Assembly: GCA_015660645.1 (NCBI GenBank)
Contig: DQKS01000101.1
Location: 1-40,328 of the forward strand
Direction of reading: 5' to 3'
DNA length: 40,328 bases
From: Gammaproteobacteria bacterium
Lineage (GTDB): Bacteria > Pseudomonadota > Gammaproteobacteria > Magnimaribacterales > Magnimaribacteraceae
Shown: positions 34,493-39,721 of the stretch, piece by piece
Position numbering within the stretch: the first letter of the stretch is position 1
Layout of the letters: every line of letters begins with the position of its first letter
Notes under the pieces: model-generated
What the model was told of the DNA's origin: nothing
Database searches by the model: none
Seen by the model: only the letters and a program-made list of their open reading frames with translations
Made by a program: the position numbers and the translations under genes

Positions 34493-35632
34493 ATGAAAAT
34501 AACTGAATTAAAAACAACTCCGACAGAACTCAGAGAATTTGACCTCCCAGAAGGCTTCAAACCCGAACATATAGAGGATATTGTTGAAATATTTAATACA
34601 CCCTTAGTTGGGTCATATAATTGGGATTATACCGATGCCGATACAAGAATTAAAAAGCTCTACGAACTAGGTAAAAAATTAAATTGGAACGGCTCTATAG
34701 ACCTGGACTGGGATAATCATATTGGCAAAGATGAATTTCCTATGAAAGCAGAATTGATAGCAAGAATGGAAGGCCCTCTCTCGATGCTTCCTGAAGATCA
34801 GAAACTCCAATACATGAGACACGATCAGGCTTGGGCACTAAGCCAGTTTCTTCATGGTGAACAGGGTGCTCTTTTAGTTGCTTCTCAATTGGTATCTTGT
34901 GCACCAACTTACCAAGCAAAACTCTATGCGGCCTCTCAAACTTTTGACGAAGCAAGACATGTGGAAGTTTTTAATAGGTACATTCAAAGAGTTCACGGAA
35001 TGGAATATCCAATTAACAAAAACCTGAAAGCTCTACTAGATAAGATTCTTACAGATCCAAGATGGGATCTTAAGTTCATTGGTATGCAGATAATCATTGA
35101 AGGTCTAGCTTTGGCTGCCTTTCAGACGACTAAAGAAACAACCAACTGCCCTCTTTTAAGGCAACTTGTCCACTATGTAATTAGAGACGAAGCAAGGCAC
35201 GTCACATTCGGGGTTAACTATCTTGAAGAATTCTTACAAACTCTGACAGAAGAAGAGTTAGAAGACAGAGCCATGTTCTGTTACGAGGCTTGTGTGATCA
35301 TGAGAGACAGAATCATAAACACTGAATTACCAGCTAAATGGTTCAATATGTCAGAAGATGACATCAGGGAACTCATCGCTAACGATGAGACGAATGATCA
35401 ATTTAGAAATTTGTTATTTACTAGGGTTTTACCAAACCTCAAGAGGATTGGCTTGTTGACTGATACAGTTAAACCTCTATACGAAGAATTAGGTCTTCTT
35501 CAGTATCAAGACTCTGATAGCGATTTTGAAATTGATTGGGCTGAGCTCAACAAACCGCTTGAAGAAGTTAAAGAGATTGACGAGCAAGCTAAAGCCGGAT
35601 TAAGTTCACACTTTCAGTCTTTAGGGTCTTAA
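34493..35632 (+). CDS. Ferritin-like di-iron carboxylate protein, paralog B
   Basis: Same ligand set (HGEQGALL, TFDEARHVEV, IIIEGLALAAF, IRDEARHVTF); starts 1 nt after the paralog A stop; long blocks identical to paralog A. Confidence 0.83.
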   Translation: MKITELKTTPTELREFDLPEGFKPEHIEDIVEIFNTPLVGSYNWDYTDADTRIKKLYELGKKLNWNGSIDLDWDNHIGKDEFPMKAELIARMEGPLSMLPEDQKLQYMRHDQAWALSQFLHGEQGALLVASQLVSCAPTYQAKLYAASQTFDEARHVEVFNRYIQRVHGMEYPINKNLKALLDKILTDPRWDLKFIGMQIIIEGLALAAFQTTKETTNCPLLRQLVHYVIRDEARHVTFGVNYLEEFLQTLTEEELEDRAMFCYEACVIMRDRIINTELPAKWFNMSEDDIRELIANDETNDQFRNLLFTRVLPNLKRIGLLTDTVKPLYEELGLLQYQDSDSDFEIDWAELNKPLEEVKEIDEQAKAGLSSHFQSLGS

Positions 35633-38088
35633 AAAAGATAAAACTGCCAATTTGCTGCAATATAAGGCTCTACCTTATCTAAAGACATGTGTCCTTGATC
35701 TTTAATGTAGCCGAAGCTTGCATATAAATTTCCATTTGAAATTGGTCTTTGGTAAATAAACTCAGCTCGGACCTCTCTCCCTGATGGAGTTAAACTTAGA
35801 TTATAATCTTCAAAAAGTACTTCTCTGTATTTTGTCCGCCCAACAGGAATTGATAATTTTATATCTGCTTCTTCCAGCTTTAAGGGTTGGGTAATTTTAA
35901 AACCAAAAGAATCAAGAGAATTTAGTAGCCCATTCTTAAAAATTCCTAAATTAAATGAAGACGAAGTAAATTTATTTATAGAGTTTATGAGGCCTGTTTC
36001 TGATAAATTTGCATGAGTCTCACCAAAAAAAACAGAACCTGTAGTATAAAATCTTGAAAAAGCATGTGAAGCTTGAACCCCTGAAAAATATGTTTGGGTT
36101 TCATCTATTGAACCATATCCTCCATTAAACGAGCTACCCAATAAACTATTTGGCTCCTTTAACAAGCCTATCTGTAAAGATAGCGAAGAATCAATAGAGT
36201 TTTCTTTAAACTCAAGAAGCAACCCTGAAGAGCTAGGTAGCTTTATGACCATAGAGTCTTGTTCTTCATGATTGCCTTTAAAATAAACCCCAGAAATAGT
36301 GGAATTATTACCTAAGCTTATACCGCCTCCTATAAAGGAACCGCTAGAAGCAAAGTCTAGAAAAGGGGATCCATAAGACGAAGATCTACCTAGAACGTTA
36401 CTGAAAGTTTTATTTGTTTCATTGTTGCCAAAAAATAATGAAGGACTTATCCCATTCCCAAGAAAATAAAAGCCAGATTTAGAAATTTCTTGTTTTAAAG
36501 AAAAATACTTCAATTTTTTATCATTTTTTGCCCACAAGCTCATAAATAAGTCATGTTCACCATAATTATTAGAAGCAAGCCCTAACATCAATTCAGTACT
36601 TCTATTAGGGCTAGTCTGAACTTCAAGGACTCTTTGAGAGGGATTTGACTGGCGAGAACTTAACCAAGCCAAAGAAGGCATTTTGTTGATATAAGTTGAA
36701 TTAAGCTTCTTAAGAAATGGAGCGCCAAGTTGATCAAAGACTACAAGATTCTTATTGGACATTGCATTTATAAACGAGTCACCGAAAGCAGGACCCAAAG
36801 TTCCAATAGATGTTCCTAGTACCGTATGTTGAAGGCCTTCTAGTGAACTGGTTACAGCAATCATTGTTTGCCCTAAAGGCTTAGTTGCAGCGTCAAGGTC
36901 CATCAAACCCTGACCATAAATTGAAGAATCAGCATAAACACCAGTCTTATTAGCTGTTTGAAACAATCTATTTAAGATTTCTGTATTTCCCAGCTGACCG
37001 CCAAAATAATCAGCTAAAAGAGCAATACCTCCGGAAACATGAGGAGCTGCCATTGATGTGCCGCTAAATGGCGCATAATAAGCAGTATCAGGTGGATCCT
37101 GAGAATAAGCACTTGTTATAGACCTACCTGGTGCTGCCAAACAGTAGTCTTTAGCAACGCCGCATAAATTAGAAAAACTGCTTATTGTGCCGTCTGGATC
37201 TACCGAAACCACAGCAACTGTATGAGTGCTCAATTCAGTTATAAGGTATGCAAGACCTCCAAACACTTCTGGACTTGAATAATCTACTCCCTGATCAGCA
37301 TAACCCCCACCATTACCCGCCGCCCAAACAAATATTGTTTTATCTGCATCTGGAATTCCTGCTTGAGCTAACACATCTATGGTTAGTGGAAAAGCCTGTC
37401 TAATGTTTTCTTCGGTGTAGTCATTAATATTGCCTTGGTAACCAAAACTTCCGTTTACAACTGTAACTTGCCTATCAATGAAATAACTTTCAAGAGTTGA
37501 CCATGAATTATCAATGGCCGAATAATCGACCGTCGAGTCAATAGTTGCAGGTTCATATTCTTCACCTGCAGTACCTAATTCTATAGAAATAAAAAATAAT
37601 TGAGCATCAAATGCTACACCATGCATACCTGTTCCATCTCTTTCACCTAAGGCTATAGCAGAAACATGAGTCCCGTGCCGTTTTTCTTCTGTTGTAGGAG
37701 ACCTTGACGAATATTCCAAGTAACTATCACTGGTTAACTTAAAAGCTCCGTCTAACTCTTGATGAGATGTATCTACTCCAGAGTCCATTATTCCAATTAT
37801 TGCACCTTCTCCCGTTGCGCCTCTAGCATAGGCTGAAGAAGCATTTATTAACGCCAATCCGTGTTGTTCAGAATACTCAGATGTACTTTCATAAGCTACT
37901 TTATCAGTTTCAAAATCACCTGAAAGAGTTATAGAACCCGAGGCTGGTAGATTTGTTGCACTAGTAATCTGGTCAACAATATTATTTGGATTCAGCGTAG
38001 GTGTGCTTGGATTGCTCCCACCTCCACCGCCACAAGAAACAACTACAAATGGAATAACAACAAAAAATTTATTTAGCTTAGAAAAAAT
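35629..38088 (-). CDS. S8 (subtilisin-like) serine peptidase, predicted lipoprotein with C-terminal beta-barrel-like domain; start extended to ATT at 38088
   Basis: Triad motifs GIMDSGVDTSH, RHGTHVSAIA, FSGTSMAAPHVSGG; ORF track start at 37857 lacks a signal. The in-frame extension reads ...KLNKFFVVIPFVVVSCGGGGGSNPSTPT (lipobox VVSC); protein ends ...AANWQFYLF. Confidence 0.82.
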   Translation of the reverse strand: MFSKLNKFFVVIPFVVVSCGGGGGSNPSTPTLNPNNIVDQITSATNLPASGSITLSGDFETDKVAYESTSEYSEQHGLALINASSAYARGATGEGAIIGIMDSGVDTSHQELDGAFKLTSDSYLEYSSRSPTTEEKRHGTHVSAIALGERDGTGMHGVAFDAQLFFISIELGTAGEEYEPATIDSTVDYSAIDNSWSTLESYFIDRQVTVVNGSFGYQGNINDYTEENIRQAFPLTIDVLAQAGIPDADKTIFVWAAGNGGGYADQGVDYSSPEVFGGLAYLITELSTHTVAVVSVDPDGTISSFSNLCGVAKDYCLAAPGRSITSAYSQDPPDTAYYAPFSGTSMAAPHVSGGIALLADYFGGQLGNTEILNRLFQTANKTGVYADSSIYGQGLMDLDAATKPLGQTMIAVTSSLEGLQHTVLGTSIGTLGPAFGDSFINAMSNKNLVVFDQLGAPFLKKLNSTYINKMPSLAWLSSRQSNPSQRVLEVQTSPNRSTELMLGLASNNYGEHDLFMSLWAKNDKKLKYFSLKQEISKSGFYFLGNGISPSLFFGNNETNKTFSNVLGRSSSYGSPFLDFASSGSFIGGGISLGNNSTISGVYFKGNHEEQDSMVIKLPSSSGLLLEFKENSIDSSLSLQIGLLKEPNSLLGSSFNGGYGSIDETQTYFSGVQASHAFSRFYTTGSVFFGETHANLSETGLINSINKFTSSSFNLGIFKNGLLNSLDSFGFKITQPLKLEEADIKLSIPVGRTKYREVLFEDYNLSLTPSGREVRAEFIYQRPISNGNLYASFGYIKDQGHMSLDKVEPYIAANWQFYLF

Positions 38089-38813
38089 TTAACACCTCCT
38101 ATTACTATCTCTCCATCTACAAGTAATTTTAACTCTGTGGCTTTGCGTTTTATAGACTTAATGTCTTTAACTTTAATCTTAAACGCCGTCACCCCTTCTC
38201 CTCTAGTGTCTTCATTTTTTATAAACTCAATACTTGTTTGATCTAAATTGATTTGATTCTTGTCTTCTGTCTTAGAGTTATTTGAAGTTAAAACAGACTG
38301 CCATCTATCCTTCATTTGAGTTGGATCAGATGATTGAATTTGTACTCCAATAATTGTCTCTACCGTTTTTGTTTCAACAAATTTTTGCCATTCTGATCCC
38401 GCCCATTTCCAACTTTCTTGTGGGTCCATAAAATCTAAAGACAAGATGGCTCCTCCTATTTGCTTTGGGTGTAAATGGATTGCTCGAGCAGCCGGATCAT
38501 CAGATTCAAAAATAATATCAACACCTTCTTGATTCACCATTTCTTTTGACTTCAAAAAATCATCTACTTGAATAATGACCATATAGCCGCCATCTCCTTG
38601 TCTTCTTTCAAGAAATCTTCCTGCGGTAGTGCCTTCTTCCACTGGACTAATAACCTCAATAAAAGTATTACCTACAGGCAACAGAGCATTTTCTAAACCA
38701 AAAAAAATAATTCCTGGATCATTAAAAGCAACTTTTATATCAAAAAGATCGCATAAATTCTTTACAACTTGGTCTCTATTTTTACAAACTAATACTAGTT
38801 GTCTTATATCCAT
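38073..38813 (-). CDS. VOC/glyoxalase-like domain protein
   Basis: MDIRQLVLVCKNRDQVVKNLCDLFDIKVAFNDPG..., NTFIEVISPVEEGTTAGRFLERRQGDGGYMVIIQVDD; resembles Glyoxalase_3-type proteins. Confidence 0.75.
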   Translation of the reverse strand: MDIRQLVLVCKNRDQVVKNLCDLFDIKVAFNDPGIIFFGLENALLPVGNTFIEVISPVEEGTTAGRFLERRQGDGGYMVIIQVDDFLKSKEMVNQEGVDIIFESDDPAARAIHLHPKQIGGAILSLDFMDPQESWKWAGSEWQKFVETKTVETIIGVQIQSSDPTQMKDRWQSVLTSNNSKTEDKNQINLDQTSIEFIKNEDTRGEGVTAFKIKVKDIKSIKRKATELKLLVDGEIVIGGVKFFLS

Positions 38814-38899: not shown

Positions 38900-39721
38900 A
38901 TGCGCATTTCAATTGATTTTGGCATCACAGTAACTGATTCATTAAAGAAATCTACAAAAGGCTCTATCGAACATAAGATGGTTTTATCTAATTCTGAACC
39001 AAATGAATCCTTGGTGAAGAATATCTTCTCAGAACTAGATTTTGAGACCGAAGTGGAGCATATAGCCGTTACTGGTGGAAAACACGGGAATATTGGAGAC
39101 TCCATTAACGGAGTCCCTGTAGAACATATCAATGAAGTAGACGCAGTTGGGGAAGGCGCTATTCATCTTTCTGGTTTAGACAAAAGTAAATCTACAATCA
39201 TCTTAAGTGCTGGATCAGGAACAGCATGTATTTTTGCAAAAAATGGAGAATACTTACATTGTTCAGGCACTGGAGTGGGAGGAGGGACAGTTATAGGGCT
39301 ATCTAAACTTCTCTTAAACACAGTAGACCCCGAAGAAATAGGTGAACTGGCAAGTAAAGGCAACCCAAGAATGACGGACTTAATAATAGAAGATGTTGTA
39401 TCAGGACCTATAGGTCAACTGCCACCGGATACTACAGCTGTAAATTTTGGCCGGATAAGCAAGACTGATAAAAAGATATCAAGAGAAGACCTAGCCGCTG
39501 GCATTGTTAATCTTGTAGGTCAGACAGCAGCAAGAATAGCAACATCTGTTGCCATGTCATTTCAAGCAACTGAAATAGTAGTAGTTGGAAGAACACCCAC
39601 TTTTGTAAGTTTAAGAGAGGCTTTAGAGCAAGCTGCACTAATAACAAATTTTAATCCTCATTTTCCTAAAAATGGAGAATACGCTTCAGCTTTAGGCGCA
39701 ATGTTAATAGCAGAAAAATAA
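38900..39721 (+). CDS. Type II pantothenate kinase-like protein (CoaW/fumble family)
   Basis: ISIDFGITVTDS, ILSAGSGTACIFAKNGEYLHCSGTGVGGGTVIGLSKLLL, C-terminal EIVVVGRTPTFVSLREALEQ and YASALGAMLIAE. Confidence 0.8.
   Translation: MRISIDFGITVTDSLKKSTKGSIEHKMVLSNSEPNESLVKNIFSELDFETEVEHIAVTGGKHGNIGDSINGVPVEHINEVDAVGEGAIHLSGLDKSKSTIILSAGSGTACIFAKNGEYLHCSGTGVGGGTVIGLSKLLLNTVDPEEIGELASKGNPRMTDLIIEDVVSGPIGQLPPDTTAVNFGRISKTDKKISREDLAAGIVNLVGQTAARIATSVAMSFQATEIVVVGRTPTFVSLREALEQAALITNFNPHFPKNGEYASALGAMLIAEK

Follow-up and report, generated by a model that had tools for sequence, protein, structure and literature searches.

AUU start codons are known but rare, and few natural ones have been documented outside infC. 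In S. aureus, AUU and AUA starts carry conserved extended Shine-Dalgarno sequences, and in reporter assays in poor medium the sites tested were about 10% as active as AUG (PMC13009471); the same source cites an AUU start for E. coli pcnB (Binns and Masters 2002). A second related arrangement is the ATGA-overlap gene pair with termination-reinitiation (PMC6728339, PMC10666635), which is the junction state in 20 of the 25 loci considered here. The window (the whole stretch of 40,328 nucleotides analyzed) belongs to SAR86, with a draft genome of 1.42 Mb in 102 contigs, and differs from those pairs in that the canonical start has been lost and the start proposed in its place is located 12 nt ahead of the overlap codon. 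Our analysis indicates that the S8 lipoprotein gene located there probably starts at AUU, with initiation driven by an extended Shine-Dalgarno sequence (Table 1). A literature search retrieved no papers on SAR86 start codons.

Table 1. Features of the VOC-S8 gene pair in the window
Feature	Position	Strand	Description	Basis
VOC/glyoxalase-fold gene	38073..38813	-	246 aa, methylmalonyl-CoA-epimerase-like; 3' end overlaps S8 start	ORF list
Extended Shine-Dalgarno AGGAGGTG	38093..38100	-	Within VOC codons Ile-Gly-Gly-Val	Duplex -13.5
In-frame TAA	38089..38091	-	Upstream bound of S8 frame	Direct reading
Proposed ATT (AUU) start codon	38086..38088	-	6 nt after AGGAGG	
CTAA	38073..38076	-	VOC stop TAA (38075-38073) and S8-frame CTA (38076-38074); equals ATGA/TTGA start site of relatives	
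Lipoprotein signal peptide (M)FSKLNKFFVVIPFVVVS	38035..38088	-	Residues 1-18	Translation
Lipobox cysteine	38032..38034	-	Residue 19, predicted lipidation site	Homolog alignment
S8 lipoprotein gene	35629..38088	-	819 codons plus stop	Frame, domain, selection
TTG	37855..37857	-	Codon 78, first canonical in-frame start codon, past signal peptide and linker	
Peptidase S8 domain	36907..37812	-	Residues 93-394, triad D102, H138, S345	Pfam PF00082, E 2.6e-40; motifs
Predicted outer-membrane beta-barrel	35641..36630	-	Residues about 487-816	AlphaFold model and Foldseek

Reading of the minus strand bore out the first-pass annotation in placing ATT directly after the in-frame TAA, and in finding AGGAGGT (38100-38094) inside the 3' end of the VOC gene, with AGGAGG 6 nt ahead of the ATT; the motif extends by one further nucleotide to AGGAGGTG. 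At the junction the VOC frame reads ATA GGA GGT GTT AAA TTT TTT CTA AGC TAA, while the S8 frame from 38088 reads ATT TTT TCT AAG CTA AAT AAA TTT TTT GTT GTT ATT CCA TTT GTA GTT GTT TCT TGT. As had been claimed for the upstream extension, ATG, GTG and TTG are all absent from the S8 frame between the TAA and the lipobox cysteine. The codon at 37857, previously given as ATG, turned out to be TTG, and the first in-frame ATG is found only at residue 101 (37788). Because of the TAA directly upstream, the start of the S8 gene is confined to the 18 codons preceding the lipobox cysteine. By a rough estimate 18 codons lack a canonical start by chance in about 40% of cases, which is not rare alone; the missing start goes beyond chance because this frame belongs to a genuine, conserved gene that, given the stop upstream, can begin only within these codons. 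Three of the 18 are one base off ATG, namely ATT (first), AAG (fourth) and ATT (twelfth, in the hydrophobic core), and the first-codon ATT is the only one of them with a Shine-Dalgarno sequence.

Several lines of evidence identify the S8 product as a real protein of exported type. In addition to the significant Peptidase_S8 domain, its best sequence match in the PDB was an extracellular serine protease (8e7f, E 3.5e-26). The lipoprotein signal peptide noted earlier in the extension was seen again; the lipobox VVSC is followed by GGGGG, and the cysteine and the five following glycines are invariant in 15 aligned homologs. Comparison with the sister species yielded a dN of 0.18 and a dS of about 1.4 (dN/dS about 0.13), a ratio that indicates purifying selection on the gene. 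Evolution is faster (dN 0.51, dS 1.25) in the 76 codons ahead of TTG 37857, which are mostly signal peptide and linker. The C-terminal third is barrel-like in the AlphaFold model, with strands mostly at pLDDT 70-92 in that part only, and Foldseek matched it to porins of the outer membrane and to the barrel of EspP (E 3e-5 to 1e-3). A Pfam search of the S8 product returned no autotransporter domain, and the full-length EprS model scored far under its cut-off (128 against 1700 bits). On these domain and structure predictions, the product is a real, predicted exported lipoprotein protease with a predicted outer-membrane barrel. Translation from TTG 37857, the first canonical codon, would preserve the S8 domain, and the gene might instead be decaying and not be translated as an exported protein. 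We consider either improbable. A downstream start would strip off the signal peptide, although the protein is predicted to form a barrel in the outer membrane, and the invariant lipobox cysteine and glycine run as well as the overall dN/dS also count against this reading.

Some variation among the S8 homologs was also observed. In one SAR86 genus HGTAV and GTSYAAP replace HGTHV and GTSMAAP (L009, L011, L012, L015 and L028, with GTSYAAP unchecked in L015), and the catalytic His and Ser appear to be retained. One homolog (L027/L056, G008:C1:141954-144235) is split into open frames of 701 and 115 aa and is possibly a broken gene. One genome contains a second, more diverged S8 homolog (L055, G032:C60:470-2866) on a separate contig, with no VOC neighbour in the fetched stretch. 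The VOC protein itself matched TIGR03081 with an E of 4.3e-14, which is under the cut-off of that model, and its match to Glyoxalase_3 was sub-threshold. The opposite-strand neighbours of the VOC-S8 pair, at 34493-35632 and 38900-39721, encode a di-iron oxygenase resembling AurF and a protein similar to Fumble (pantothenate kinase).

The junction was compared in 25 loci with a VOC-S8 pair, the window and 24 further SAR86 species. The S8-frame codon at the VOC stop was part of ATGA in 20 loci, TTGA in two, TTAA in two and CTAA in the window, so that a canonical start overlapping the VOC stop is present in 22 relatives and absent from the window. Three loci have no canonical start: the window (CTAA), its sister species (TTAA; locus L003, from the same genome as L032) and a species of a second genus (TTAA; locus L012), the other members of which have ATG. 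At least two independent losses were required by a maximum-likelihood tree. By this comparison, the S8 gene ancestrally started at an ATG or TTG that overlapped the VOC stop (ATGA/TTGA), and this codon changed to CTAA or TTAA in the genus of the window and once in another genus, removing every canonical start.

This series also bears on two alternatives that had been raised along with the ATT start. A sequence or assembly error, in the T6 run or by substitution, could hide an ordinary start in a draft of 102 contigs with a homopolymer at the site. The overlap between the VOC stop and the S8 codon is at the identical place in all 25 loci, none of which has an extra or missing T that would restore a start, and this invariant register excludes an indel or T-run error as the cause of the missing start. 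An indel would moreover disrupt the end of the VOC protein, whose last residue is the same in position in every locus (Gly-Gly-x-x-Phe-x-Leu-x-stop), whereas a hidden ATGA or TTGA would take at least two substitution errors, and the sister species and the second genus lack a start independently. An error is thus largely refuted and very unlikely. A minus-one frameshift that carries ribosomes out of VOC and yields a VOC-S8 fusion protein would fit the position of S8 in the -1 frame relative to VOC and the T-rich stretch. However, the VOC frame contains no canonical slippery heptamer (X XXY YYZ), and a slip on GTT AAA TTT TTT CTA would lead to TAA or to codons that do not match. The product would carry its signal peptide behind a 240-residue cytosolic enzyme, and in relatives the junction carries an ordinary ATG, leaving this explanation with next to no probability.

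The strength of the Shine-Dalgarno sequence was highest where the canonical start codon had been lost. The full 8-nt AGGAGGTG was present in 3/3 loci without a start and in 0/22 others (Fisher 4e-4, ignoring relatedness among the loci). Across the 25 junctions, duplex energies were tied strongest in all three no-start loci (-13.5), compared with -13.1 and -10.4 in the two TTG loci, which also have a strong Shine-Dalgarno sequence, and -5.4 to -12.6 in ATG loci, which range down to none. Judged by the codon usage of the window genome and its sister, AGGAGGTG is expected in about 5% of Ile-Gly-Gly-Val stretches, and GGAGG occurred at the same place in one of 22 VOC homologs of another SAR86 family that have no downstream S8 gene. 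The earlier suggestion of a probable ATT start is therefore supported by the start losses together with the strongest Shine-Dalgarno sequences in the same lineages, from which we infer, rather than observe, initiation at ATT. The presence of ATT and AGGAGG alone proves nothing, because VOC codons (Ile-Gly-Gly-Val-Lys-Phe) also account for the ATT position and part of the AGGAGG. Likewise, the codon at the proposed start position is ATT in 21 and GTT in four of the 25 loci, including relatives that start at ATG, but this conservation is no independent proof of use since the VOC Lys-Phe codons force ATT or GTT there in nearly all relatives. Genome-wide counts of AGGAGG-N-ATT and AGGAGG-N-ATG were not above those of a reversed-pattern control, so the motif count alone says nothing, and no consistent pattern emerged from folding the junction RNA.

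The main rival to the AUU start is termination-reinitiation at the ancestral site, where ribosomes ending VOC translation, being already in place, would restart on the overlapping CTA (TTA in relatives). All three no-start loci keep the VOC stop at the exact ancestral -4 overlap, an arrangement strongly favoured by reinitiation (PMC10666635), although the VOC protein itself may fix the position of its stop. A CTA start would give MNKFFVVIPFVVVSC, a normal short signal peptide. Two of the three positions of CTA, and likewise of TTA, do not pair with the initiator anticodon, and the codon differs between the sister species as if it were unconstrained. Among 899 genes sampled from the window genome and its sister, the aligned Shine-Dalgarno spacer peaked at 4-6 nt; at the window junction the spacer is 6 nt for ATT and 18 nt for CTA. 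As reinitiation also leaves AGGAGGTG in exactly the no-start loci unexplained, we regard it as unlikely.

For initiation at AUU, 30S subunits would be placed by the 8-nt Shine-Dalgarno duplex (AGGAGGUG), which falls within the 3' end of VOC and precedes the AUU by 6 nt, and ongoing VOC translation would open the site, favouring initiation of S8. The initiator tRNA would read AUU despite a mismatch at the third position, which would produce MFSKLNKFFVVIPFVVVSC, followed by the lipoprotein. Translation would be expected to be weak and, as for known AUU starts, sensitive to IF3. Certain points count against the AUU start. The resulting 16-nt overlap with VOC lies outside the -8 to +6 window typical for termination-reinitiation (PMC10666635), and the second-genus locus carries another near-cognate codon, ATC, 3 nt before TTA. 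The constraint that VOC coding places on the ATT/GTT and on part of the AGGAGG also weighs against it, and the Shine-Dalgarno association draws on few events because there are only two independent start losses.

A search for further non-canonical starts compared 582 kb of the window genome with 562 kb of the sister genome, a partial sample with one main ORF per place. In thirteen of 177 gene pairs in this sample, at least ten residues could be aligned before a canonical start was reached. Judged from the aligned rows, eleven of these represented conserved leaders with an ordinary start shortly downstream, and the other two were infC and S8. The N-terminus of infC has no ATG, GTG or TTG and instead shows a conserved ATA with GGAG plus 6 nt in 25/25 genomes of the SAR86 family where it was found (loci include L081, L197 at G000:C72:3871-4074, and L058-L082). 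ATA is the apparent infC start in this family, and we regard it as undisputed in the window genome, which by this sequence comparison uses non-canonical starts, but rarely. The infC AUA start is thereby documented throughout the family. A broader proposal, which we put forward tentatively and hold to be rather doubtful, is that SAR86 repeatedly trades the AUG at the stop-start overlap for an AUU fixed by the VOC Gly-Gly-Val-Lys-Phe codons. The overlapping coding sequence would then supply both Shine-Dalgarno sequence and start, and through the AUU the surface protease would be kept at a low level and would respond to IF3 in concert with infC (AUA).

S8 is most likely a well-supported new example of an AUU start, not a new mechanism. 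The 25-locus series records the loss of a start codon where two genes overlap, together with a strong ribosome-binding site in exactly the lineages concerned, and so offers an evolutionary path to a non-canonical start that can be tested. With regard to the protein, the subtilase autotransporters NalP, SphB1, Ssp and EprS resemble the S8 product in combining an S8 passenger with a C-terminal outer-membrane barrel (predicted here), and differ in that the barrel of the S8 product has no Pfam autotransporter family assignment. NalP and SphB1 are lipoprotein members with a lipobox, as in the S8 product. With regard to the start, infC with its AUU or AUA codon differs from S8 in that its start is a known autoregulatory device of IF3. 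To our knowledge, E. coli pcnB is not overlapped by codons of an upstream gene, unlike S8. As cited in PMC13009471, pcnB is, like S8, an ordinary chromosomal gene, and it is limited by its AUU start. The S. aureus genes cvfC1 (AUU) and ccpN/infC (AUA) share with S8 the combination of a non-canonical start and an extended Shine-Dalgarno sequence, but the host is a Firmicute, cvfC1 is first in its operon and the starts were mapped experimentally, whereas that of S8 is deduced (PMC13009471). The AUU start of Borrelia burgdorferi pncA/BBE22 was shown experimentally and belongs to a cytosolic enzyme, unlike S8; as for S8, annotation picks the next canonical codon downstream and trims the N-terminus (PMC13398362). 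In the case of S8, gene finders limited to ATG, GTG and TTG would cut the protein behind its export signal.
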